Below, piece by piece: positions 16,635-60,392 of a stretch of DNA of 64,000 bases (its first letter is position 1; every line of letters starts with the position of its first letter). Source of the DNA: Microcoleus sp. bin48.metabat.b7b8b9.023 (lineage in GTDB: Bacteria; Cyanobacteriota; Cyanobacteriia; Cyanobacteriales; Microcoleaceae). Position numbers and translations under genes: made by a program. The notes beneath the pieces are model-generated. The model saw only the letters and a program-made list of their open reading frames with translations. It was not told the DNA's origin and did no database searches. Where the stretch lies: the NCBI RefSeq assembly GCF_013299185.1, contig NZ_JAAFKG010000045.1, positions 1 to 64,000 of the forward strand, written 5' to 3'.

Positions 16635-18458
<1,824 letters not shown>

Positions 18459-19124
18459 ATGAATTTTGATAAATCAATTAAGTTTATGGTACAAACAATT
18501 CAAGCTCGAAATGTCACGATGTACGACTTGAGAACAAAATTTGGAATTAAATTAGTCAGAGATGACCAATTCTTTCGCGAGTGGCAGGATAATTTGCCAG
18601 AAATCTCAGAAGCTGAGAAACAGCGATTAGACAGAGTGCAAGCCAGTTACACAAATTTGCTAGAATATCCCCCGCTTCTAGAAAATACAGTCAAAATGGT
18701 AGTATTGTCTCCATTATTAGACTTGGCTGATTTTTATCTTGCTCCTTTTCACGTTACTTCAGAAAAGTCTGTAGAAATTATTGACGAAGATGAAGGAATG
18801 ATTGTCAGGGGACAGTTGGATGTTTTAGCCTTGTTTCAGGAGTTTTGGGTAGTAGTTATCGAGTCCAAGAAAGCCGCGTTCTCTTTGGAAGTAGGGATTC
18901 CGCAGTTGCTAGCTTATATGTTAGCTAATCTGAAGAGCGATCGACCTACTTACGGATTGTTAATGAATGGGGCAGATTTTCTATTTGTCAAATTAGTTAA
19001 GGGGGAAACACCGCAGTACGCTTTTTCTCGGAAGTTTTGCCTTTTAAATCCAGGGAACGAGTTGTACACCGTGCTGAGTATTTTGAAGCGCCTCGGCGAG
19101 TTGAATGTGGGTAATCTGGCTTAG
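18459..19124 (+). CDS. HsdR N-terminal-like PD-(D/E)XK nuclease domain protein
   Basis: 221 aa from ATG 18459; the frame extends 47 codons upstream, but only through repeat DNA. The core GQLDVLALF followed by WVVVIESKKAAFSLEVGIPQLLAYM fits a PD-(D/E)XK nuclease (Asp, then Glu-X-Lys, then a Gln) of the type found at the N-terminus of type I restriction subunit R. The helicase part of a real HsdR is missing and the full family often stands alone in cyanobacteria. DNA cleavage is inferred. It is convergent with the Eco57I-type methylase gene and marks the edge of the defence-like region. Confidence 0.75.
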   Translation: MNFDKSIKFMVQTIQARNVTMYDLRTKFGIKLVRDDQFFREWQDNLPEISEAEKQRLDRVQASYTNLLEYPPLLENTVKMVVLSPLLDLADFYLAPFHVTSEKSVEIIDEDEGMIVRGQLDVLALFQEFWVVVIESKKAAFSLEVGIPQLLAYMLANLKSDRPTYGLLMNGADFLFVKLVKGETPQYAFSRKFCLLNPGNELYTVLSILKRLGELNVGNLA

Positions 19125-19135
19125 TCGGGGAATCA

Positions 19136-19206
19136 GAAACCGGGTTTTTTTCCGAAAGTCTTTGGTTTTCACCCACAGATTCAGTAAAAAACCCGGTTTC
19201 TTTGGT
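19136..19206. repeat. 'AAACCGGGTTTTT' hairpin repeat, copy 3
   Basis: AGAAACCGGGTTTTTTTCCG at the left pairs with AAAAAACCCGGTTTCTTTGG at the right. It sits between two convergent genes, where a hairpin could serve as a bidirectional terminator. Confidence 0.75.
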
Positions 19207-19252
19207 TGGAGTGCATAAGTCTTGAAATGGATGATTTCAGGAGGTTCCCCAG

Positions 19253-22200
19253 TTATACCGCAAAGGTGCGATAGGCTGCTAATGCTGCATCTTTCACGGT
19301 TTCGGGGACGATCGGAAAAGTAGTCAAAATATACGCAAATTCGGCTTCGGTTAATCCGTAAAGGTGGGCGATGATGCCATCTAATTCGGCTCGCAATTTA
19401 GCGCGTTCTGTTTCATCGCTAACGCCTTCTCGGTGGGAGTTTAAGCCGACTTCTTGGGCTAATTCGTCAAATTCTGGGGTGGTGCAGATCAGTTTGGCGG
19501 CGCGCTGTACGATATCGGAGAAGTATTTGTCACCTGATGTTAATCGCGGGACAGGAAGTTGGTATATGTAGAACATATTGAGAGTTGTAGTCACTTTTTG
19601 ACGGAGAAACCAATCCACAATAAAAGAGTTACACATTGCACAAAAAGCCAACATTTCTGCTTGACCAATTTTAGATTTACCTAAATCGATACTGGTACTA
19701 TTATTATCAAAGAACACTCTGCTGGGAGCAATGGTCGTAATTAATGTACGCGAGTCAGTATTACGAGCAATTCGTCGATGTACCCAACGATAGCATTGAT
19801 AATCAAGTATCTGATTGCAATCTTTATTATTTCCAAGTAATTCTTTTCTCCCCATTTTTTCTTCGATCCAGTATGGCGCAGATTCATCAGTTTTAGTGAA
19901 TTGATGAAACATTTTTCCTACAAAAAGTGGTAGACTATTGCTTGTGGCTTGAAGTTGAAAAAAATCAGTTCTGTTACCCCTGTCAAATTCGCGATGTAGT
20001 ATACAATTCCATTTCCCCTTAATCTGTTCGCCAAGTAACGGAAATTGCAGCATTTTTTCAGCAATCCGAATATCTCCATCATTTTTAAACTCCATCACCG
20101 ACAGAGAGTCAGGAGATAACTTCCGCACTAATTCAACGCTAATTCGCAAGCTATCAGCATTAGGAAACCTTTGTAGTTCCTCCACATCAAGACGCATAAA
20201 AGCAGAGGAAAACTCAGTTGTTATCCCATCCTTCTCAAAAGTAAGAACAACTATTTTGAAACTCTTATGAACCCCTTCAAAAATTGTTTTACGATTTTCT
20301 AAACAAAATAACCCCGTGACTTGTGTTTGACTAAATAACATTTCCCGCAGTTGCTTCGTACCCAAGTCAGTGTAAATGCCGCTGGGAATCACAATCCCGC
20401 ACTCGCCACCTCTGCGTAAGAGATTAAAACATTGCTCTACAAAAAGTTTGTAGAGATTAATATCCGTACCTGCTTTTTTACCATTGACAATTGAAATCTG
20501 ATTTTTATACTGTTCTGCTGAACGATAGTAAGCACTAATGTGGGGAAAATTGCTCTGATATTCCAACCAAGCATTAGCAACTTCAGAATCTTGCAAGAGT
20601 TTCTTTTGCTCTTTTTCAAAGCTCTTAATATCCATCTTTTTTTTCGTCACTAAATTGCTATGATTAGCAAAAAACTCCTTAGCATCTGGCTTAAAAACTT
20701 CCCAAGGTGGATTAGCAATAATCGCATCAAAACCTCCCCGTTCTAAAATTCTATCGAAGTGATATCCCCAGTGAAACGGTTGCAATTTTGCAATATCATC
20801 AATACTTAAAACTCGTTTCTGCGGTTTCCCCGCCAACTGCACTTCTTCATACTTAATTTTCAGCCTGGTAAACTCATCAAACAATAACTGATTTAACTTG
20901 AATTGCGATTCCTGGTTTAACTTTTCAATATGCTGCCGCAAATTCAATAATCGCGATTCTTGAGAAGTTCCTTCCTGTTTCCCGGACTGAAAAGCGTGTT
21001 TTTTATACAAATCAATCGACTTATTCTTGTCTGCTAAAATTTTTTTGTAATTAGCAGAAGCTAAAATTTGCAGCAAATTACCTTGGCGCGAATTTCCTAC
21101 AGAATCAAATCGTTCTTCATCCACCCGAATCAATCCAATTAAGGAATTCCCCGCCATGATGTTAAAATCAATATTCGGCAGCGGTTCCAATTCGCTGACA
21201 TCGTGGGCGGCCGAAACTAAGGCTAAAAACAGTCGCAGTTTGGCAATTTCCACTGCTTCGGGCATGATGTCCACGCCGTAGAGATTGTCGCTAATAATCC
21301 GTTTTTTGATGTAGTAGTTGAGTGATGAATGCTCTGTTTCGATGTTTTTTAGTAAGTCGTTGAGGTGGTGGTCGGTTAAAAACTTGCTTGTACCGATGAT
21401 GATTGAATAGATGTAAATTAGCGTTTTCATGGCTGCGACTAAAAACGCGCCGGAACCGCAGGCTGGGTCTAATAATGTGAGGTTTGGGAGGATTTCTTCT
21501 AGCAGGCGGCGGCAGAGATTTGCGTCGAGATTGGTGAGGAGTTCGGTGATGGTTTCAAATTTATGAGAAGAACCCCCCCGGCCCCCCTTGCTAAGGGGGG
21601 AGAAAGAGGGGGAGGGGGAGGAAGAGTTGGAGGAGTTGAGGGATTGGTTGACTTTATCGAGGATTAGTTTGTTGATAGTGCGATCGCACAAATATTCAGT
21701 AATCTCCGGCCTGGTATAATAAGCACCAAAGGCTTTTTGGTTAATGTATTTCTCAAAGATGTATCCCAAAACTGCCGGATTAATTTCGTTTTCCTTCCCG
21801 CCCACCGTATCGTCGAGATTCCAAGAATAGCGCGCAAATAAATCTAAGATTTTCTCAAAAGCAACATCAGGTATAGAAATATTCGGATAATTCTGTTCGA
21901 TAGAATGTTCCAGAAACAGTCCGCCATTCAAATATTTAATATTGCCAATCAGCCTTTCAACCTGAACAGTTCGTTCATGTTGTGGCTTAGCAAATCCCTC
22001 AAAAAACAGTGTTTTCAAGAATTCCGAGTAAAATAAATCCGTTCCCCGCTGCTTGCTTTCGGCTAACTTTTCCTGCAAATACATCAATCTGTCATTGTCG
22101 ATAAACCCTTTGCGCTGCAAAAAATAAACAAACATCAAACGGTTGAGTAAAACTGAAGTATACCAGCGCCTATCTGTCTCCTTGTCAATGCCGCGAATCG

Positions 22201-22741
22201 CATTCAAAAATTCAACGTGTTGCTGTTTAAACTCTTCAAAAAACTTCTTAGTAATTCGTTCGACATCCAATCCAGCCTGCAATCTTTGGGCGACATCAAT
22301 CACCGACAGCGTTTCTAATTCTGCTAATTCAACTTTTAAAGCTGTCACCTTACTCAACAGCAAATCGCAAGGTTCCCGTTTCACATATACATGATCGCGA
22401 GGATAAAGTTTTGTACCTTCGCACTTCACCCAATACCAAAGAGATTTAGTCCGATTTGCATCAATAAAAATTAATATATTTTCGCGGGATATCTGGACAA
22501 TTTCGCGATAAATTGTCAGTCTTTTGGCTGCATTGGGAATGTTACCGATAGCGGTAGTAATTTCATATACAACTACTCCTAAAAGTTGGGCGATTTGTTT
22601 TCGGGAATAAGTCTCGCCTTCTATTTCTGCGGGTATGGTTTTGCGGGATGATGGATTATCCCAACCGAGTTGTTGGACGAATAGTTTGTTGAATTCAAAG
22701 TCTTGGAGAAGTTGACGGGATTGTTCGAGTGTTTGTGGCAT
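19253..22741 (-). CDS. Eco57I-type adenine methylase (restriction-modification type)
   Basis: 1162 aa. The SAM-binding motif I LLDPACGSGAFLV (about 423-435) and catalytic motif NPPW (677-680, in FDAIIANPPWEVF) show an N6-adenine DNA methyltransferase of the Eco57I class. A long N-terminal domain (about 340 residues, with NILIFIDANRTKSLWYWV near 88) and a C-terminal target-recognition-like region (about 850-1100) follow the type IIG/PglX-like layout. I could not identify a nuclease motif in the N-terminus. Residues about 369-394 (NSSSPSPSFSPLSKGGRGG) are encoded by a C/G-rich dispersed repeat and interrupt the region before motif I. It is the last of a minus-strand run with a Uma2 gene and a PLD-SNF2 helicase. 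Confidence 0.88.
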   Translation of the reverse strand: MPQTLEQSRQLLQDFEFNKLFVQQLGWDNPSSRKTIPAEIEGETYSRKQIAQLLGVVVYEITTAIGNIPNAAKRLTIYREIVQISRENILIFIDANRTKSLWYWVKCEGTKLYPRDHVYVKREPCDLLLSKVTALKVELAELETLSVIDVAQRLQAGLDVERITKKFFEEFKQQHVEFLNAIRGIDKETDRRWYTSVLLNRLMFVYFLQRKGFIDNDRLMYLQEKLAESKQRGTDLFYSEFLKTLFFEGFAKPQHERTVQVERLIGNIKYLNGGLFLEHSIEQNYPNISIPDVAFEKILDLFARYSWNLDDTVGGKENEINPAVLGYIFEKYINQKAFGAYYTRPEITEYLCDRTINKLILDKVNQSLNSSNSSSPSPSFSPLSKGGRGGSSHKFETITELLTNLDANLCRRLLEEILPNLTLLDPACGSGAFLVAAMKTLIYIYSIIIGTSKFLTDHHLNDLLKNIETEHSSLNYYIKKRIISDNLYGVDIMPEAVEIAKLRLFLALVSAAHDVSELEPLPNIDFNIMAGNSLIGLIRVDEERFDSVGNSRQGNLLQILASANYKKILADKNKSIDLYKKHAFQSGKQEGTSQESRLLNLRQHIEKLNQESQFKLNQLLFDEFTRLKIKYEEVQLAGKPQKRVLSIDDIAKLQPFHWGYHFDRILERGGFDAIIANPPWEVFKPDAKEFFANHSNLVTKKKMDIKSFEKEQKKLLQDSEVANAWLEYQSNFPHISAYYRSAEQYKNQISIVNGKKAGTDINLYKLFVEQCFNLLRRGGECGIVIPSGIYTDLGTKQLREMLFSQTQVTGLFCLENRKTIFEGVHKSFKIVVLTFEKDGITTEFSSAFMRLDVEELQRFPNADSLRISVELVRKLSPDSLSVMEFKNDGDIRIAEKMLQFPLLGEQIKGKWNCILHREFDRGNRTDFFQLQATSNSLPLFVGKMFHQFTKTDESAPYWIEEKMGRKELLGNNKDCNQILDYQCYRWVHRRIARNTDSRTLITTIAPSRVFFDNNSTSIDLGKSKIGQAEMLAFCAMCNSFIVDWFLRQKVTTTLNMFYIYQLPVPRLTSGDKYFSDIVQRAAKLICTTPEFDELAQEVGLNSHREGVSDETERAKLRAELDGIIAHLYGLTEAEFAYILTTFPIVPETVKDAALAAYRTFAV
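21571..21625. repeat. C/G-rich dispersed repeat inside the methylase gene
   Basis: CCCCCCCGGCCCCCCTTGCT is followed by AAGGGGGGAGAAAGAGGG, the same family as the copies at 3158, 13728 and 18164. It is in frame and codes for a Ser/Pro/Gly-rich linker. Confidence 0.8.
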
Positions 22742-22812
22742 GGTTAAGAAAGTTCGGCAACGGATTTTGTAGCGGATGTAACGGATGTTATGGGAATTGG
22801 GGGCGGGTGGTT

Positions 22813-22878
22813 AGAAACCGGGTTTTTGCGAGAATACTGGTTTATAATCCTTAATCTCGGAAAAGACCCGGTTTCTTG
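22813..22878. repeat. 'AAACCGGGTTTTT' hairpin repeat, copy 4
   Basis: AGAAACCGGGTTTTTGCGAG pairs with AAAAGACCCGGTTTCTTGG. It lies between the Uma2 gene and the methylase gene, inside the presumed operon. Confidence 0.75.
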
Positions 22879-22906
22879 GCGTAGTCGATAAATCAGAAAG
22901 ACGGAA

Positions 22907-23476
22907 TTAATTAACTTGTAAAAAACTAAAAATATCTTCAACTCGTAATTGCCAATCGCCTAACACATTCAGAACTGGTATAATATCAGTGTCATATTTC
23001 ACTTCTGGTAACTGATTTGGTTGAAATACCATCACAGAACGATCGTTAGGATCTATAAATAAACCTAATTTAGTTTGGTGCTGAATCGAAAAAATAATCT
23101 TATTAATTACACGATTAGGAGACTGTTCTGGTGACAAGATTTCAATCACCCAATCGGGATGACTTTCAAATCGATTTGCAATTTCTCCATTTTCATCAAC
23201 AGGGATGCGAGGCCATTCAAAAACAGCAATGTCTGGTACTAAGGAACGTCCTCCAAATGTGCAGCGTAACTCAGTCAAAGCTAAAGCTAGTTTTCTGGGT
23301 TTACCCTGTTGATTAATCGTTGAGGCAAATTCAGTTTGAATCAGACTATGTTTTCCTTGAGGCATCGGTTTTTGATAAATTTGACCGTTGATGTATTCAC
23401 TCGCAGGTTCGGTTTCTGATAAATTCAAGAATGCTGCCAGAGAAAGCTTGGATTTAGGCTCAATTGATAGCGTCAT
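22907..23476 (-). CDS. Uma2 family putative endonuclease
   Basis: 189 aa. Uma2 (DUF820) proteins have a PD-(D/E)XK fold and are greatly expanded in cyanobacteria; their targets are unknown. The core is visible as SLVPDIAVFEWPRIP, then PDWVIEILSPEQSPNRVINK with the Glu-Ile-x-Ser-Pro pattern, and IQHQTKLGLFIDPNDRSVMVF. It sits between the methylase and the helicase genes on the same strand. A nuclease role in the module is possible. Uma2 genes are so common in these genomes that chance placement is also reasonable. Confidence 0.88.
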   Translation of the reverse strand: MTLSIEPKSKLSLAAFLNLSETEPASEYINGQIYQKPMPQGKHSLIQTEFASTINQQGKPRKLALALTELRCTFGGRSLVPDIAVFEWPRIPVDENGEIANRFESHPDWVIEILSPEQSPNRVINKIIFSIQHQTKLGLFIDPNDRSVMVFQPNQLPEVKYDTDIIPVLNVLGDWQLRVEDIFSFLQVN

Positions 23477-23479
23477 AAT

Positions 23480-23599
23480 TTTAAAATAAAGCTATTATTC
23501 ATTGTACATCTTATTTGTTCTGGAACAGGTGGTATGGTGCGTCGCTCGATAATATTTGTCAGCAGCGAGAATTGTTCCCGGCGACGCACCCTACTTTAA
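23480..23599. repeat. 'GGTGCGTCGC...GCGACGCACC' hairpin in the Uma2-helicase spacer
   Basis: ATGGTGCGTCGCTCG (from about 23533) faces GGCGACGCACCCTAC (to about 23593). The GTAGGGTGCGTC hairpin family also occurs at 33308-33373 and 62841-62905. Confidence 0.6.
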
Positions 23600-26500
23600 T
23601 TATATCTCCTGAAACAAGCCTAAAGAACAAATAATCATCGGTTCCCGTTTGTCTCCATCTTCACTAACTATACAAAAACGGTCATCCATTCTCAATCCTA
23701 CAACTAATTCTGCTAATGCCCGATCGCCTATACCGCTTTTTAACTGCCGGTTCAACGTGTCAATTGCCGACTGACGCAGGGGATAGCGGTAAATTTCATC
23801 AATGGCTTTTGATAATTCATCCGATGCGAATATTGTACCACGCATGGACTGTGCGTAATTTTTCAAACGTTCGTAGGTTCGGAACCGAGCACCGGAGGAT
23901 CTCCCTAATTGTCCGCCCGCAGTTAACTCTTCTTCTGCTATCAACTCAGCACCTTTTTTGACTAATTCGTGATGCTGTTTGTCTCTCGGAATCGCCGGAG
24001 TCGCTTCGTCGCAGGCGGCAATTCTTAATATGGCGAGTTGCGATTGTGTGACGCTGTTTCCATTGCGATCGACCCAAATCAACGAATCATTACCCTCGGC
24101 AGTTTTCATGTACAATAAAACTCCTTCTGGCTGCAATGGTTCGGGTGTATGAGCGCGAGTTGAGTAAACTACATTGGGCATTGACTCAATGGTTTTTTTC
24201 AAAGTCGGATTATTGTCAGTCGCATTTTTCCAAATCTGAAAAGCTTCTGATGTTAAGTCAACTTCGGCATCTTCTTCGCCATCTAAAATCCCGGATTTTT
24301 CATTGTAAATATCCAGAATGACTTGCGGTGAATCATCCTCAAAAAATGTCTCGTCGGTGCCGACAACTTCGGCATTTTCCTGTAAGCGTCGGCGCAGTCT
24401 TTCCCGCAGGTTGATAATCCGTTCCACTCCTTCCTCTGGCAAAAATGAATAGCACAAAATGCGATCGGCTGTTTGCCCAATTCTGTCCACTCTTCCCGCC
24501 CGCTGAATCAACCGAATGATTGCCCAAGGTAAGTCATAATTAACGATAATTGCACTGTCTTGTAAGTTATGACCTTCACTCAGAATATCAGTGGTAATTA
24601 AAACCCGCAATTCTTGTTCTGGTGAGATTTTGTTACGCCTACCGTTGCTAGCTGGACTAAACCGAAATGTGAGTTCTGTGGGGTCTTTTGATTTGCCTGT
24701 CACCGATGCAATGCCTGCAATTTTTAGCTTGGTTAAGTTATCAGTTATATAGCGGACTGTATCGGCAAATTGAGTAAAAATTAGTATCTTCTCATGGGGA
24801 TGAGTTTCTGCAATCAATGTCACCAAAGCTGCTAACTTTTCATCTGGTTGAGAATGCCATACACTGCAAGTTTGCAATACTTCAATTAAAGAGCGGGCAT
24901 CTGCTAGTAAATCTCGTTTTAATTTCTTGGTGTCAAAAAAATCTGATTTCAGCCATTTAAACCTGCGCTGGTAGCGTGTTTGATATTCTCCATAAACTAC
25001 TTCTGCGCGCTGTTTAAAACTTTTTTCGTCTAACTGCAATTGGGCTTCGATATCTGAAAGTTCCCCCGATTCATCTTCGATTTCTTCCGTATCAAAACTG
25101 CTCATTACCACTGAATCAGCATCTTCATCGCTGTTGCGGGTATCCAACAATTCTGCATCCTGGGTGCCGATCGGGATATCGGAGTTTTGCCCGATCGCAT
25201 ACAAGTAAATAAAATTCCGCAGGATGTGCCGTTCGATGGACTGAATAAAGGCACTGCCGCTGCTTTCTAGCCGTTTAAACAGATTTGTCCGCGAAAAACC
25301 CATCAACCGACGACCGCCACGGAATAGGGCATTTAACTGTCGCTGCTCTGCTTCAGTCGGCTGTTGTTTGGGTTTTTTGGCGATGTAATTTCCCAGCCCG
25401 TAACGGGGCAGATTTAGGGCGTTGATGACTTCGACAATTTCCTCAAAGTCAAGCTGGGAGTTAGTTGTGGAAGTTTCCGAGGAAAACTTAATTGTTTTGG
25501 GAATGCGATCGGGAAAATAGGAACGAGTGCCATTGGCAAATTCTAGATATTTGCGATCGGTTTCTGCCTGATTTTTCGCATAATTCTCTTTAATAAACGA
25601 GCGAGTTCGCCTCACCATATAGCGCTTCATTAAGTCTCGCCAATCATCCGGATGTTCGCTCTTTTCAAAAGCAGCTAAAGAGCGCACTGAACATTGATGT
25701 CGCTTCATAAATTCTAACTCTCCTTGACTGCCGCCACCCAATTGATTGAGCAAAGCTTCCGGCCGCAATCCTAAATTTTGGTCTTCGGGAATAAACAGCC
25801 GTAACTGAGAAGATAAATCTAAATAGGTTTTGTTGTAAGGAGTTGCCGAAAGCAGAATACATTTACTTTCATTGATGGTGATATATTCTTGAATTGCTCG
25901 ATATCGCTTGCCTTCTCGGTTTCTGAGGTTGTGACTTTCATCAATTAACACAACTCGATAGCGCCGCAATTCTGGCAATTCTTGCTGCACCCGACTGATC
26001 GATAAGACTTTGGCCAGCAGGCGATATTTATCAGCATACTCCTGCCACATTTTGACCAAGTTTTTCGGACAAATAATTAAGGTTTCCAAGAGACAGTCTT
26101 CTTGGAGAATTTTGGCAATCGCCGTACCGACTAAAGTTTTGCCCAAACCTACCACATCGCCAATAATCACGCCTCCCCGTTTGGTAATGTGACGGGCGGC
26201 TAACTTAACGGCTTCTTCTTGAAACTGAAATAAATTATTAAAATCGCGGGGAATCTGAAATTCGGCAATACCTGCGATCGCCTCGCGGGACAAATGATAG
26301 ACAATGTTGAGATAGATGTGATAAGGTGGAATTGGTTCGGAGCGCGCCCAACTGCGATCGAGAATTTCTGAAAGTTCTTGAGAAATATCAATACAACCGT
26401 ATTCTTCCCAGCGATTTTCAAACCATTTTTGTAATTTATCACAAGCATCTTGATCGAGAATATCAATATTCAATTCTCCTTGTTTTGAGAGTCCCGATAA

Positions 26501-26992
26501 AGTCAGATTACTGCTACCCAAAAAGCCAACTATCGGACTGTTTGGATCGTGACGGTGAACGAGATATAGCTTAGCGTGTAGATGATAAGCTAAAAATAAT
26601 TTAACAATGACTTTTCCGGTTTTAATCTGATAGCTCAACCTGCGTAATCCCTGCTCGTCGATATCACTGGGAGCGCCTATTGTCAACTGCTGGCGAAATT
26701 CCTCTGCTATCCGTTTTTTGAGTCGAATAATGGCACTATTGTCAATCCCCCGGTGATGGGAAATCAGACTAAAACTAGCATTCAATTCATCGGATGGCAA
26801 ACTTTGCATTCCCACCAAAAGGCGGCAGCAGGCTCCTCGATTTCCCATATATGCTTCGATTAAATCGCCAATGCTTCGCCATCCCCGGAGGTTGAAATAG
26901 CCAACGCAAAAATCGGCCCGGTAGGAGAGTTTGATGGTTTCTCGTAATACTGGTAGGAGAGATAGTTCGATGTTGTCAAAAATGCGCGGCAC
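23600..26992 (-). CDS. PLD-domain SNF2-family helicase
   Basis: 1130 aa. An N-terminal phospholipase D-like nuclease domain carries HAKLYLV (His139, Lys141) and GSSN (159-162). It is followed by an SNF2/superfamily 2 helicase: Walker A GDVVGLGKT (278-286), Walker B LIDESHNLRN (DESH 351-354), LLSATPYNK, and the C-terminal TTDILSEGHNLQD and RAGRVDRIGQ. The fusion would couple ATP-driven DNA tracking with cleavage. Only one HxK motif is present, so PLD activity would need a dimer. It lies upstream of Uma2 and the Eco57I-type methylase on the same strand; helicase plus methylase plus nuclease is the composition of a restriction-like defence system. Confidence 0.9.
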   Translation of the reverse strand: MPRIFDNIELSLLPVLRETIKLSYRADFCVGYFNLRGWRSIGDLIEAYMGNRGACCRLLVGMQSLPSDELNASFSLISHHRGIDNSAIIRLKKRIAEEFRQQLTIGAPSDIDEQGLRRLSYQIKTGKVIVKLFLAYHLHAKLYLVHRHDPNSPIVGFLGSSNLTLSGLSKQGELNIDILDQDACDKLQKWFENRWEEYGCIDISQELSEILDRSWARSEPIPPYHIYLNIVYHLSREAIAGIAEFQIPRDFNNLFQFQEEAVKLAARHITKRGGVIIGDVVGLGKTLVGTAIAKILQEDCLLETLIICPKNLVKMWQEYADKYRLLAKVLSISRVQQELPELRRYRVVLIDESHNLRNREGKRYRAIQEYITINESKCILLSATPYNKTYLDLSSQLRLFIPEDQNLGLRPEALLNQLGGGSQGELEFMKRHQCSVRSLAAFEKSEHPDDWRDLMKRYMVRRTRSFIKENYAKNQAETDRKYLEFANGTRSYFPDRIPKTIKFSSETSTTNSQLDFEEIVEVINALNLPRYGLGNYIAKKPKQQPTEAEQRQLNALFRGGRRLMGFSRTNLFKRLESSGSAFIQSIERHILRNFIYLYAIGQNSDIPIGTQDAELLDTRNSDEDADSVVMSSFDTEEIEDESGELSDIEAQLQLDEKSFKQRAEVVYGEYQTRYQRRFKWLKSDFFDTKKLKRDLLADARSLIEVLQTCSVWHSQPDEKLAALVTLIAETHPHEKILIFTQFADTVRYITDNLTKLKIAGIASVTGKSKDPTELTFRFSPASNGRRNKISPEQELRVLITTDILSEGHNLQDSAIIVNYDLPWAIIRLIQRAGRVDRIGQTADRILCYSFLPEEGVERIINLRERLRRRLQENAEVVGTDETFFEDDSPQVILDIYNEKSGILDGEEDAEVDLTSEAFQIWKNATDNNPTLKKTIESMPNVVYSTRAHTPEPLQPEGVLLYMKTAEGNDSLIWVDRNGNSVTQSQLAILRIAACDEATPAIPRDKQHHELVKKGAELIAEEELTAGGQLGRSSGARFRTYERLKNYAQSMRGTIFASDELSKAIDEIYRYPLRQSAIDTLNRQLKSGIGDRALAELVVGLRMDDRFCIVSEDGDKREPMIICSLGLFQEI

Positions 26993-27019
26993 TTAGTTTA
27001 TTCTCTATAGGTTAGTTGT

Positions 27020-27092
27020 AAATAAAAAGTTTGTAGTAAGGACTTCAGTCCTTGATAATTAAGATAGAAGGACTAAAGTCCTCACTACGAAC
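27020..27092. repeat. 'GGACTTTAGTCC' hairpin repeat, single copy
   Basis: GTTTGTAGTAAGGACTTCAG is matched by GACTAAAGTCCTCACTACGA in inverted orientation. Same family as the six-copy array at 37617-38100 and copies near 53183, 57504 and 63220. It separates the helicase gene from the upstream Uma2 gene. Confidence 0.75.
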
Positions 27093-27096
27093 CTGT

Positions 27097-27846
27097 TTAT
27101 AATTGCGGCTCGATTCCGGCCGATCGCAATTGGGCGCGCAACTGCTCTAATTGGTCTTCGGCGCGATCGGCTCTTTGGGCCCCCGATAACAACAGATTAC
27201 CTGCACTATCCCACCAGCGCAACCAAGGTAATTCCATATTTTGATAACTACCTTGCCAAATTCCCAACTCCACTCCTAACGGTGCGATCGGATAATGACC
27301 GCGCTCATTTGCAGCAACTAATTCATACCTACCTTGGCTGAGATAATACACTTCAACACTAGCCTTGTTGACTTCGTAGATTCCATAAAATGCGGGACGA
27401 ATCACATTTTCATAAATCCAGAATCTCCCCGGTTTAGTTTCCTGTTTTCCCGATCGCAATAAAGGCGTTCTATCCCGTTCTTCCGACCCATTACCCGATA
27501 CAAACTCTAACACGATTAATGGTGCTACAAACTCTTGCCACATCACGTAAGAACGCCGATATTTACCGTCTAGTGTTGGCGGGACATTGGGAACGTAAAA
27601 CCAGTCAGGCGCTTCTGCACCCTTTTCTAACGGGTCAGCTAATCGCCAATAAATGCCACTGTCTTGACCGATACAATAGTTACCGTCAGCGTGAATTGTT
27701 TCTAAAACGGGAGTAATGGAATCGGTTAGTAAAATGCTTTGGGGATGTTCTTGAAAGTTCTTCACAAAAGTACCGTCTGATTCGGGTAGTTGAGTATGAT
27801 CTGGCCAGCCTGTGGGATTGTTTTCTACATCTAAGGAGAATTTCAT
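27097..27846 (-). CDS. Uma2 family putative endonuclease, long form
   Basis: 249 aa. Family features include APDWFYVPNVPPT, APLIVLEFVSGNGSEERD (the Leu-Glu-Phe-Val-Ser element), GRFWIYENVI and FYGIYEVNKASVEVY. The C-terminus is a short coiled coil, AEDQLEQLRAQLRSAG. This long form with a helical tail is common in filamentous cyanobacteria. It is co-directional with, and upstream of, the PLD-SNF2 helicase but separated by a hairpin repeat, so membership in that operon is uncertain. Divergent from dnaK. Confidence 0.88.
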   Translation of the reverse strand: MKFSLDVENNPTGWPDHTQLPESDGTFVKNFQEHPQSILLTDSITPVLETIHADGNYCIGQDSGIYWRLADPLEKGAEAPDWFYVPNVPPTLDGKYRRSYVMWQEFVAPLIVLEFVSGNGSEERDRTPLLRSGKQETKPGRFWIYENVIRPAFYGIYEVNKASVEVYYLSQGRYELVAANERGHYPIAPLGVELGIWQGSYQNMELPWLRWWDSAGNLLLSGAQRADRAEDQLEQLRAQLRSAGIEPQL

Positions 27847-28144
27847 AGTTTTATGGTGATTGGAGGTGTTTGTGCGATCCTCTTCGAGGGCTGCGCTAAC
27901 GGCTTTTAATTTTGATGTTGATGATAGGATAACTTTTGCTCTCCATTCTAATCAATTTGCTCCTCAGTCTCTGCGCCAAAGCCATATGGAAAAAAGGTCG
28001 ATCGCACCCAACCAACCCCAACCGCTACCCCGAAGTGAGATAACCCCCCGCAGCCCCGTGGCTCGACGCGGTACAATAAATGCGATCGAACTTAACGCTT
28101 ATATTGAAAAAGCTACACACAACGCCACAGGAGACAACGGACGT

Positions 28145-51500: not shown

Positions 51501-53157
51501 ATTTAGTCCTTGTTACGTGGAAGTGTTAGAGCAATTTCAAGCCAGAGCCTACATTATTTGCCCCATATTCTGCGGCAGTCAACTTTGGGGTTTGCTCGCC
51601 AGCTATCAAAATTCTGGGCCCCGCACTTGGCGCGCAGCAGAAATCAATATTGCGCTGCAAATTAGCACTCAACTCGAAGTCGCCTTACAACAAGCTCAAT
51701 TGCTCGAAGCCACTCAACAGCAAGCCGTAGAACTCCAACAAGCCGCCTTAGCAGCAGAAGCAGCCAACCTCGCCAAAAGCACTTTTCTGGCCAACATGAG
51801 CCACGAATTACGCACCCCTCTTAACTCAATTCTGGGATTCTCCCAATTGATGCAGCGATCTGCCAACCTCAACCGCGAACAACAGGAAAATATCGGCATC
51901 ATCAACCGCAGCGGAGAACACTTGCTAAGTCTGATCAATCAAATATTAGATTTAGCCAAAATAGAGGCAGGACGCATTACACTCAACCCAACAGACTTTC
52001 AATTAAGCAGACTGCTAAACGAGGTGGAAGAGATGTTCCAACTTCAGGCGCGCGAGCAACAATTGGAGTTAATATTTAGCTACTCTAGGAATATTCCAGA
52101 ATATTTGCACGCCGATCAAGTTAAGTTGCGCCAAGTTTTAATTAATCTGCTTTCTAACGCCATTAAGTTTACGAAGGAGGGAGGCATTGCAGTAAGAGTA
52201 AGTTCGGTAATTGAACAGGAAAATCAGCAATTACCAATCAATTACAAATTACATTTTGAAATAGAAGATACAGGCTGCGGCATGACTCCCGATGAGTTAG
52301 ATCAGCTTTTTCAAGCCTTTGTCCAAACCAAAACAGGAAAAACATCTCAGCAGGGAACCGGTTTGGGGCTGGCCATCAGCCAACACTTTGTCAAGCTGAT
52401 GGGCGACATCATTACTGTACGCAGTAAAGTAGGACACGGGACTACCTTCGCCTTTGATATCCCCGTCAGCGCAGTTGAGGCGGCGGCGATTGAACCGGTA
52501 CAGCCGTCGCGTCGGGCGATCGCCCTAGAATCCAACCAACCGCGCTATCGTATATTGATTGTGGACGATCGCGAGGACAACCGCCAACTGCTGCTCAAAA
52601 TCCTTGCAACCTTTGACTTTGAGCTCAAAGAAGCCTGTAATGGTGTAGAAGCCATTGAAGTGTGGACGAGTTTTGAGCCGGACTTAATTTTTATGGATAT
52701 GTGGATGCCCGTAATGGATGGAGGTGAAGCCACGCAACGCATTAAAGCCACCGTTAAAGGTGAAACTACCGTCATTATTGCCGTGAGTGCCGCTAACGCC
52801 GAAGAAGCGCGAAGTGTTACTGTATCAAATGATTGGGATGACTTTATCCACAAACCCTTTCGAGAGACAGACATCTTTGCCACCCTCCACAAACATCTCG
52901 GAGTGCGTTACATTTACGATGAACCGGAGAGTGTGCCGGAGCCAACTCAAATCGAGGCTCCGACTCCAGAAAACGTTGCAGCTTTACCAACGGATTGGCT
53001 GACAGCTTTAGAAAAAGCCACTATTGAGTGCGATTTAGAGCTGATTCTCAGTCAAATAGAGCAAATTCGCGATCGAAATGACCCATTAGCTAGCGCTCTC
53101 GCCGCCTTAGCTAACGAGTTTCAGTTCAATCAAATACTAGCTCTCATCCGTCCCTAA
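48535..53157 (+). CDS. Hybrid histidine kinase with Cache, PAS and phytochrome-like GAF domains
   Basis: 1540 aa. A transmembrane segment at about 20-42 and another near 365-390 enclose an extracytoplasmic double-Cache sensor. HAMP, three PAS regions and a GAF (about 865-1050) follow. The GAF has the bilin-type pattern [50 protein letters not shown] with Cys993 where cyanobacteriochromes attach chromophore (Tyr, not His, follows). The kinase core has [14 protein letters not shown] (His1090), NLLSNAIKF and [10 protein letters not shown] receiver with Asp1388 (FMDMWMP) and a 60-residue helical tail end the protein. Sensing of both an external ligand and light is possible but inferred. Confidence 0.93.
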
Positions 53158-53182
53158 ACCAAATAAAAATGATATTAGATCG

Positions 53183-53255
53183 GGTTCGTAGTGAGGACTT
53201 TAGTCCTCATCAAACTTTGAGGACTAAAGTCCGAACGATCAAACCTACAAAGGTT
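53183..53255. repeat. 'GGACTTTAGTCC' hairpin repeat, single copy
   Basis: GTTCGTAGTGAGGACTTTAG faces GAGGACTAAAGTCCGAACG. It lies in the 115-bp spacer between the hybrid kinase and the REC-kinase and may weaken read-through. Confidence 0.7.
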
Positions 53256-53272
53256 ATTTTACCAGACTAGAT

Positions 53273-54616
53273 ATGAATTACGAAGCAACTCCCGTCTTAA
53301 AAGGGAATATTTTAATTGTTGACGATGTTCCCAATAATTTGCACCTTCTAGCTAAAATACTATCGAGGCATGGCTACAAAACACGCACTGCACCCGACGG
53401 TCAACTAGCCCTAAGGTCGATCGAATCAACACCTCCTGACTTGATTTTGCTGGACATCATGATGCCCAGTATGGACGGCTACACAGTCTGCAAAGTATTG
53501 AAAGCTTCTGCCACCACCAAAGACATTCCCGTCATTTTTATCAGCGCTTTAAATGAAGTGTTAGATAAAGTCAAAGCCTTTGAAGTTGGCGGTGTAGATT
53601 ATATCACAAAACCTTTTCAGGAACAAGAAGTTTTGGCGCGCGTCTCAAATCAACTCTTGCAGCGCCAGTTGTTGCAGCAAACACAATCCTACGCGCAGCA
53701 ACTCGAAGAAACTTTAACTGAACTCAAGAAGACTCAATCTCAGTTAATACAGAAGGAAAAAATGGCTTCTTTAGGGCAACTAGCCGCAGGGATTGCTCAC
53801 GAAATCAACAATCCAGTCAACTTTATCTCCGGCAATATTACTATGGCTGCTGACTATGCACAAGACTTGGTTCGCCTCATCAAATTATACCGACATTACT
53901 ACCCGCATCCCGTGGCAGAAATTGTCGGCGAATTGGAAAAAATTCAACCCGAATTCATTGCAGATGATTATCCAAAACTGCTAAGTTCGATGAAAGAAGG
54001 TACTTCTCGAATTAGCGAGATTGTGCTGTCTTTTCGCAACTTCTCCCGCCTGGGTCAAGAAAAGTGCAAGCCAGTGGATATTCATGAAGGCATTGACAAT
54101 ACTTTAGTTATTTTGCAACACCGCCTCAAAGGAGCCAACAATATCGGTGAGATTGAAGTGAGAAAACACTACAGTAAACTGCCAAAAATCACCTGTTATG
54201 CCAGTCTATTAAATCAGGTATTTATGAATCTGCTAATCAATGCTATTGATGCGCTGGAATCTCAACCTTATCCCCGAAAAATTACCATCAGCACTTCAGT
54301 AAGTTCAGATTCAGAACCTGCGTTGTACAATCCAAATTCAAACTTGGCAACTCAAAAGTCTCAGTCCGTTATGATTTTAATTGCCGATAACGGTTGCGGG
54401 ATTTGCGAGGCAGTGCGCCACCGGATATTTGACCCATTTTTTACTACCAAGCCTGTCGGCAGGGGTACTGGATTGGGCTTGGCAATCAGTCACGATATTA
54501 TAGTAGAAAAACATGGAGGTAAAATCAGTTGTATTTCGATTCCCGGTGGGGGAACAGAGTTCATTTTGCAGATTCCGATATCTGTTCAATGTGACGTATT
54601 AAATGTTAACATTTAA
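53273..54616 (+). CDS. Receiver-histidine kinase (REC-HisKA-HATPase)
   Basis: 447 aa. An N-terminal receiver (10-130; [10 protein letters not shown], Asp61 in [21 protein letters not shown]) is joined by a coiled coil to a kinase with [12 protein letters not shown] (His176), [22 protein letters not shown] and [11 protein letters not shown]. No membrane span, so it is soluble. The layout suggests an intermediate in a phosphorelay, receiving phosphate at Asp61 and then acting as a kinase. It lies directly after two hybrid kinases that lack an HPt, making it a plausible downstream partner. Its kinase core is close to that of the 591-aa kinase at 4167. Confidence 0.94.
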
Positions 54617-59648: not shown

Positions 59649-60392
59649 TTACGTTCGCTCTCGCGTACTGACCGCGACTTTCAAACTGTCTTTATATCTA
59701 TTGTTAGGTGCTTTTTGCTGATAATTCAAAGCCTTCTGCACTCTACACAATTTACGATTCTTAGCTTGAAAAGTTTTAGAATTACCAAATTTTGCACCTG
59801 TACTTAATGTAATCAAGTTGGTAATATCTAAGTCGATCTCTATTTGATTAGAAGATGCAGGTGATGGTTCAAGATCGACATCCACCAACAGAGAAACAGT
59901 CCATCTTCCCGGTGGTGAAAAATTCACCGTAACAGTAGATTGTTCAACACAGGAAGAAATCTCTCTGATCCCATAAATATTTAATGGCTCGGAAAATTTA
60001 GGTAAAAATACTTGGCTATCTTTCAACCGAAAAGTAGCTTTCGTATATTCAGCAGTGCCACCATTCTGTTGCTTTTTGAAGTTCGGGTATTTTGCCCGAC
60101 CTGCAAAGAAGTTGGTAAATGCTGTTTGGAGGTGTTGCCATCCCTGTTGGAGTGGGACGTTGCTAACTTCCGTTAAAAACCGTAAATCTTCTTGTTTTTT
60201 CGATTGAGCCAGCATTACATTAGTTTCCACATACCTTACTCGTTCTTGTCGATCGCACCCAGCCTCTGTGGTAGTGGCGACGGCACAATTGTAGACAAGA
60301 CGCGGGCCACCCACAGTCTGCCTCAACAGGGATTCCTGTTCGGACGTTGGGTAAAAGCGGTACTTGAATGCTCTCTGTGTCATGTGTTGCAT
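59649..60392 (-). pseudogene. tnpB: Truncated TnpB (IS200/IS605 family nuclease)
   Basis: 247 aa against about 380-420 for complete TnpB. The N-terminus is intact (MTQRAFKYRFYPTSEQESLL, GGPRLVYNCAV), through the wedge domain to the first RuvC Asp in EIDLDITNLITLSTG. After NRYKDSLKVAVSTRERT the frame ends, and the remaining RuvC Glu and Asp motifs and the zinc ribbon are absent. The element's right end follows within about 55-90 bp. This shows an internal deletion that removed about 40 percent of the gene; the product cannot be an active nuclease. Confidence 0.85.

Follow-up and report, generated by a model that had tools for sequence, protein, structure and literature searches.

A recurrent pair of PLD-SNF2 helicase and MmeI-like adenine methylase genes in Microcoleus sp., a probable ATP-dependent restriction-modification system

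This report concerns a pair of genes in a 64,000-nucleotide stretch of DNA from the cyanobacterium Microcoleus sp. bin48.metabat.b7b8b9.023 (contig NZ_JAAFKG010000045.1, positions 1 to 64,000; the whole stretch is hereafter the window), which encode a PLD-SNF2 helicase (HEL) and an Eco57I-type adenine methylase (MT). An earlier sequence-only reading had placed here a compact restriction-like module of four genes, the other two belonging to the Uma2 family, and our analysis found the four open reading frames (ORFs) at the coordinates given there, all on the minus strand. The motifs on which that reading relied, i.e. DPACGSG and NPPW in MT and HxK, GSSN, Walker A and DESH in HEL, are all present. 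A Pfam scan took in 27 of the 29 ORFs of the window that have 190 aa or more, the two omitted ones lying antisense to larger genes, and a minority of the shorter ones. The scan matched the 1162-aa ORF to Eco57I (E 1.5e-23) and detected PLDc_2 (E 1.8e-10), SNF2-rel_dom (8.9e-12) and Helicase_C (2.4e-15) in the single HEL chain. The two genes and their parts are:

23600..26992 (-): HEL, 1130 aa, GTG start, Pfam PLDc_2, SNF2-rel_dom and Helicase_C; proposed restriction (motor and nuclease) subunit
26408..26932 (-): putative PLD nuclease domain of HEL, aa 21-195, with H139, K141, N162 and E173; from the Pfam range and conservation
24473..26275 (-): SNF2 motor of HEL, about aa 240-840
19253..22741 (-): MT, 1162 aa, class 0, Pfam Eco57I and MmeI_Mtase; proposed modification and specificity subunit
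22280..22741 (-): N-terminal domain of MT, about aa 1-154, in the position of the nuclease domain of Type IIG/IIL enzymes
20624..21502 (-): catalytic core of MT, aa 414-706, with DPACGSG and NPPW; from Pfam and the translation
19562..20044 (-): presumed target-recognition domain of MT, about aa 900-1060, overlapped by the densest mismatch window in 33 of 46 close MT pairs

HEL and MT recur as neighbours. We analysed the best 80 of at least 568 confirmed HEL relatives in a one-genome-per-species collection; MT, or an in-frame piece of it, is the next gene downstream of HEL on the same strand in 75 of these best-scoring loci, and the other five end within 1.7 kb of HEL, at contig ends. The helicase-methylase neighbourhood, whose recurrence the sequence-only reading had left to be checked, is found in every one of the 75 testable loci, so the lack of recurrence that would have spoken against that reading did not appear. 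The downstream MT has at least 950 aa in 53 of the 75, the gap between both genes is of 60 bp or less, overlaps included, in 36, and 20 phyla are named among the 80 loci, two of which carry no phylum name. Across 339 genomes of the cyanobacterial phylum some HEL match occurs in 117 and some MT match in 100, at an E threshold of 1e-10 that lets in distant helicases and methylases. Forty cyanobacterial loci were picked for close HEL matches, 33 of them with a full-length HEL (at least 950 aa); among these 33, MT or a fragment of it follows HEL on the same strand in 26 and precedes it, again on the same strand, in five, the locus ending first in the other two. In cyanobacteria HEL and MT are often separated by small genes, whereas elsewhere both genes often abut. 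Within 5 kb of the pair, DUF29-type genes occur in nine and nucleotidyltransferase-type genes in seven of the 40 cyanobacterial loci (L069-L107).

The catalytic residues expected of a motor-driven nuclease are conserved in HEL. The histidine and lysine of the PLD motif, the lysine and threonine of Walker A and the arginines of motif VI are identical in 111 of 111 full-length HELs, and the DESH histidine is kept in 106, the other five having a glutamine. The proposal of the sequence-only reading that the PLD domain may be the nuclease is supported as likely. Pfam detected neither an SRA nor any other reader domain in HEL. A PDB sequence search returned 30 matches of helicase or ATPase type, and no PLD nuclease is among the matches listed by VIA-align for HEL, a list of at most 50 entries that says little on this point since its rows mostly cover aa 233-860. 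The best PADLOC model for HEL, C3a139 'HKD+Snf2', gives 174.4 bits and scores far higher, with 437.7 bits, on a distant clade-B helicase of the same genome; the NCBIfam model of a PLD anti-phage protein reaches 150.2 bits against a cut-off of 1100. Structure predictions from alignments of 13 and 11 rows were poor (mean predicted local distance difference test, pLDDT, 58.1 and 57.7). As a separate observation, at L108:6624-17287 (contig C90 of genome G000) the gene of another, distant PLD-SNF2 helicase of this genome shares 4 bp with that of a 2451-aa protein. This large protein has sigma-70 regions 1.2, 2, 3 and 4 close to the N-terminus, and an AAA_22 domain follows much further along; its sigma part has a PADLOC match to MzaA, and its relatives adjoin such helicases in three other loci (L109, L122 and L123).

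The order of domains in MT is an N-terminal nuclease-like domain, a helical domain, the methyltransferase core and the recognition domain. A conserved D...(D/E)xK signature was sought in the N-terminal domain of 40 class-0 and 37 class-1 MTs and none was found, the structure model of MT being poor. Neither a PDB sequence search with MT nor Foldseek with this poor model gave a PDB match at E 0.001, and Pfam reported no DUF1156 in MT but matched Eco57I and MmeI_Mtase instead. The full-length MTs split into two classes, with 40 members in class 0 and 37 in class 1. In five cross-class pairs that were aligned, the N-terminal part of about 360 residues and the methyltransferase core are 29-47% identical, whereas the C-terminal part hardly matches. 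Two MTs (L072:4168-8163 and L095:5110-9177) have in the alignment an extra C-terminal domain of about 150-170 aa, AlbA_2/Schlafen-like by eye, and distant MT relatives exist in genomes G215 and G170, for which no HEL partner is listed. The MT class also bears on the most frequent third gene family beside HEL and MT, present in 27 of the 80 loci (the next family in four). This family is DprA-like (PF02481; of four members scanned three are above the cut-off and one just below it) and sits on the MT side, its best PADLOC match being PsyrA in the one member scanned. Among the 80 loci it accompanies 23 of 37 full class-1 MTs, two of 16 full class-0 MTs and two of 27 loci with a short MT or none. 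Loci L145, L149, L154 and L172 are examples of a DprA-like gene downstream of MT; none was seen among the window ORFs scanned.

The distribution of sequence change over the two proteins indicates where specificity may lie. A quick tree was made of 98 HELs, 49 for each MT class (14 of 112 HELs were left out as unclassifiable). On this tree the MT class changes eight times, at least six of these changes being forced by starred branches, compared with about 33 changes when the labels are shuffled; HELs partnered by MTs of different classes are up to 75.6% identical. The clustering of mismatches was then scanned in 46 MT pairs among close relatives, using 300 shuffles and the densest 120-column window. 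The observed value was unreached by any shuffle in 44 of the 46 pairs, and in 33 the densest window starts at aa 870 or beyond, over the presumed target-recognition domain. The seven closest pairs, with HELs 98.1-99.2% identical, display the effect most sharply: the densest MT window is 46-70% identical as against 93-99% elsewhere in MT, and it lies at 940-1062 in six of the seven, while HEL mismatches are not notably clustered in six of them (in the L227/L228 pair, six of 300 shuffles were as high). HEL thus remains nearly constant while the recognition part of MT changes, and it therefore seems that HEL takes its specificity from MT, as otherwise the host genome would be exposed. Loci L087 and L094, in which HEL is intact but MT broken, fit this reading because HEL would be expected to be harmless without MT, and the intact MT of locus L127, with no HEL in the locus, also fits specificity from MT. 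The localised change in MT beside a near-constant HEL and the changes of MT class on the HEL tree strongly suggest, at the level of the sequences, that the methylase holds the specificity and that the restriction subunit makes use of it; MT would probably supply the specificity and HEL the motor and nuclease, much as in Type III restriction.

Comparison of the insertion site within the genus delimits the system further, and brings in the remaining genes of the locus:

22907..23476 (-): inner Uma2 gene, 189 aa, between HEL and MT; judged outside the system
27097..27846 (-): outer Uma2 gene, 249 aa; judged a site resident outside the system
18318..19124 (+): HsdR-N-like gene; judged outside the system

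The module is flanked by a phytoene-desaturase-like gene (an amine-oxidase match in Pfam) and a dnaK-like gene (an HSP70 match); these may be pds and dnaK, names that are our reading of the Pfam matches. Both flanking genes lie on one contig in 13 of 29 genomes of the genus, and all 13 were examined. The stretch between them (window 16635-27860; L214-L225) is a variable site whose inserts differ among the 13 genomes. Four genomes have the HEL-MT pair at the site (the window, L214, L215 and L216) and nine lack it (L217-L225). In L214, L215 and L216 the HEL-MT gap is of 175-286 nt and contains no Uma2 gene, whereas a homologue of the outer Uma2 gene is at the site in five of the nine genomes without the pair. 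The HsdR-N-like gene has a homologue at the site in six of these nine, and the pair is present without it in L215 and L216. Since the pair is present or absent at the site and the Uma2 and HsdR-N-like genes vary separately, the pair is best described as a module gained or lost in a variable site, and the others as independent residents. Both Uma2 genes are genuine members of their family (Pfam E 8.8e-33 and 5.9e-15 for the 189-aa and 249-aa ORFs), as the sequence-only reading had said. Its suggestion that Uma2 is an accessory of the system is not supported by this distribution, nor by the 113 Uma2 matches in the genome (111 of them above the cut-off), because of which Uma2 neighbours mean little. 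The HsdR-N-like gene which it noted at one edge does exist, but its HSDR_N match is weak (E 6.7e-4, 20.0 bits against a Pfam cut-off of 25.1). The system is therefore the HEL and MT pair and not a four-gene set. The pair is not intact in L214, where HEL as assembled is split into two ORFs with MT whole, and in genome G195 (L099), where only pieces of HEL and MT remain. Elsewhere in the window (59649-60392) an ORF has weak to moderate matches to the OrfB_IS605 transposase and its helix-turn-helix domain.

The HEL search also finds a relative of about 54% identity on plasmid pSYSX of Synechocystis PCC 6803, where the order is HEL (SGL_RS01585, 43696-47151), a small ORF, a VapC-family toxin gene and MT (SGL_RS01600, 47827-51129). 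We take these HEL and MT genes to be slr6047 and slr6050 in the older nomenclature. The pSYSX HEL retains LHAKLY, GSSN, GDVVGLGKT, DESHN and QRAGRVDRIG, and its MT, of class 1, retains DPTCGSG and NPPY. According to one account, PCC 6803 has five DNA methyltransferases, with M.Ssp6803IV and V on pSYSX (PMC6604393); in another, M.Ssp6803V corresponds to the Type I genes slr6095-97 and M.Ssp6803IV to GA(m6A)GGC (m6A, N6-methyladenine), and the wild type has this mark on 1446 of its 1451 sites (PMC7296061). Searches of the whole of pSYSX (106,004 bp) with PF07669 and PF02384, the two methylase families looked for, gave two loci only, MT and the Type I HsdM, and the annotation up to 100,900 contains the same two DNA methyltransferases and no other. 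As M.Ssp6803V is the Type I enzyme, MT is by elimination M.Ssp6803IV, which was reportedly named by Hagemann et al. in 2018. The complement of GAAGGC, GCCTTC, is devoid of adenine, so that m6A is possible on one strand only, a situation typical of Type III, ISP and IIL systems. This site belongs to the class-1 relative; the MT of the window is of the other class, so its own site may be another. The PADLOC model PDLC03628 'Type IIG' matches the pSYSX MT over its whole length with 2661.8 bits, so it was evidently built on this protein or a near copy, and HEL relatives are annotated as 'helicase-related protein'. Right after MT, pSYSX 51619-54240 (L208:16924-19545) is annotated with multiubiquitin, E2/UBC, ThiF and DUF6527, possibly a second defence-type cassette.

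We found no published description of the HEL-MT pair in the open-licence PubMed Central literature, which does not imply its absence from print. It does resemble several known systems. Like Type III (Mod/Res) systems, the pair has two subunits with an SF2 motor in the restriction subunit beside a methylase, the specificity is proposed to reside in the methylase, and in the PCC 6803 relative, if correctly assigned by elimination, m6A would be possible on one strand only. Type III Res, however, belongs to another helicase branch and has a PD-(D/E)XK nuclease, unlike HEL with its N-terminal PLD nuclease and SNF2 motor, and MT is large and Eco57I/MmeI-like. Type ISP enzymes are single chains that combine a nuclease, a motor, a methylase and a recognition domain, whereas HEL and MT are two separate genes. 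Type IIG/IIL enzymes (MmeI, DrdV) share the domain order of MT, and PADLOC labels the PCC 6803 MT as Type IIG; MT differs in that the N-terminal catalytic signature is not conserved in the 77 MTs compared and in its fixed PLD-SNF2 partner. Class 1 DISARM (DrmD, DrmMI, DrmC) also unites an SNF2 helicase, an adenine methylase and a PLD protein, but HEL scores far under the cut-offs of the DrmD-type models (NF038317, 114.0 of 610 bits; NF038318, 82.0 of 950), MT is only a partial DrmMI match, and Pfam reported no DrmA or DrmB domain in the scanned window ORFs, for which reasons DISARM was rejected. BREX was discarded likewise, the PglX-type methylase model NF033452 giving 52.4 of 500 bits and no PglZ or BrxC domain appearing in the same ORFs. 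HsdS, DUF499 and DUF3780 were also missing among these ORFs, so that the absence of drmA, drmB, pglZ and hsdS noted by the sequence-only reading is borne out within this scope, and its idea of a compact system apart from DISARM and BREX is supported.

The nearest published architecture to HEL-MT is the Type-2 BREX-related (BR) system, which comprises an HKD-Swi2/Snf2 helicase, an N6-adenine methyltransferase, a DUF499 ATPase and DUF3780 (Rakesh and Krishnan 2026, PMC12839542), an archaeal form being described in PMC7641849. HEL too has an N-terminal HKD/PLD nuclease fused to a Swi2/Snf2 helicase and stands beside an N6-adenine methylase. Unlike the pair, the Type-2 BR core has the DUF499 ATPase, DUF3780 and a DUF1156 methylase (PMC12839542), none of which was found here, MT being Eco57I/MmeI-like; with the top third family (27 of 80 loci) being DprA-like, this candidate was also set aside. 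The Type IV enzyme SauUSI has the PLD domain followed by an SF2 ATPase, forms a dimer joined at the PLD domains, translocates and cuts modified DNA (PMC7913695). HEL shares its order of N-terminal PLD nuclease and SF2 ATPase, for which translocation is likewise proposed, but SauUSI, with modified DNA as its target, comes with an SRA recognition domain of its own, whereas HEL is without a recognised reader domain and is paired with a methylase. CglI/NgoAVII likewise employ a PLD nuclease together with an SF2 ATPase in restriction-modification; in these systems, unlike HEL, PLD nuclease and ATPase are on different chains, the PLD one bearing a B3 recognition domain of its own (PMC7913695).

What the loci display is a fixed partnership of the two genes, conservation of the catalytic residues, change concentrated in one part of MT beside a near-constant HEL, and repeated switches of MT class. 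Complex formation, translocation, cutting, a two-site rule and phage defence are inferred, and we consider it probable, by a fair margin over an even chance, that the pair makes up an ATP-dependent restriction-modification system in which HEL is the restriction subunit, of PLD-SNF2 type, and does the cutting, while MT is the modification subunit, MmeI-like, and supplies the specificity. MT would recognise an asymmetric site via its variable domain and put m6A on one strand of host DNA. HEL, having no sequence recognition of its own, would be recruited by MT bound at a site still unmodified, possibly by way of the 360 N-terminal residues that the two MT classes have in common, and would move along the DNA by means of its SNF2 motor at the expense of ATP. 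With a PLD active site formed from two HxK half-sites, a HEL dimer or two meeting complexes would make the cut. As a mark on a single strand would leave one of the two daughter duplexes bare after replication, cutting is expected to depend on a pair of sites in a given orientation, like that of Type III and Type ISP enzymes.

Several points weigh against this proposal. The densest MT window falls outside the presumed recognition domain in 13 of the 46 pairs (e.g. 533-652, 650-785 and 754-892), HEL also has variable stretches in more distant pairs, and the seven closest pairs come from six genomes of one genus (L075-L078, L227 and L228) and are not independent. Downstream MTs are shorter than 950 aa in 22 of 75 loci, which contig ends explain in some cases, perhaps not in all. 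The 80 loci were the best-scoring among at least 568, which restricts the pairing rule to the clade that they represent; among HELs of a remoter clade, at about 28% identity, an MT homologue was found in only 11 of 19 loci, MT neighbours being all that was examined there. The poor AlphaFold models (mean pLDDT 58) allowed no test of a HEL-MT interface, and the assignment of the pSYSX MT to M.Ssp6803IV rests on elimination.

There are three rival explanations. MT might be a stand-alone Type IIG/IIL enzyme cutting with its own N-terminal nuclease, as its domain order and PADLOC label would have it, and HEL an independent or merely enhancing neighbour; the lack of a conserved D...(D/E)xK signature in either MT class, the adjoining HEL in all 75 testable loci and the conservation of the HEL catalytic residues make this unlikely. 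We regard as slightly more doubtful still that the pair blocks phage DNA without sequence-specific cutting, in the way suggested for BREX, or that it is a cut-down DISARM or DUF499 'BR' system depending on partners encoded at other places in the genome. PADLOC matches of HEL to DrmD, BrxH and HmaA models and of MT to DrmMI and PglX point in that direction, as does the pairing of an HKD-SNF2 helicase with an N6-methyltransferase in Type-2 BR systems (PMC12839542), but the NCBIfam scores for DrmD and PglX are far under their cut-offs, no partner domain of DISARM, BREX or BR appears in the scanned window ORFs (the rest of the genome was not searched) and no third gene family goes beyond 27 of 80 loci. 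It is very improbable that HEL is a Type IV-like enzyme attacking modified DNA, with MT a neighbour in another role: SauUSI does share the order of PLD and SF2 ATPase and cuts modified DNA (PMC7913695), yet HEL has no SRA or other reader domain detectable by Pfam, is in fixed pairing with MT, and stays near constant while the variable stretch of MT changes.

Returning to the two-subunit restriction-modification reading, it is tempting to go one step further, to which we give about even chances, and to regard the pair as an ATP-dependent restriction enzyme type in its own right, spread across phyla and distinct from Types I, III and ISP, in which an MmeI-like methylase with a dead nuclease would lend its recognition in trans to a SauUSI-like PLD-SNF2 cutter, a DprA-like third protein taking part in many non-cyanobacterial versions. 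On this further step the Type IIG label of the methylase would be wrong, and M.Ssp6803IV would acquire a partner for restriction. If the two-subunit reading itself is true, a common two-gene system, present in 20 named phyla, has been filed as a lone Type IIG enzyme (in PADLOC) and an anonymous 'helicase-related protein'. Sequence recognition and the PLD-motor nuclease could then be split between subunits and re-paired in evolution. The GA(m6A)GGC methylation of Synechocystis PCC 6803 would likewise have a candidate restriction counterpart, in a standard laboratory cyanobacterium where the model can be tested.

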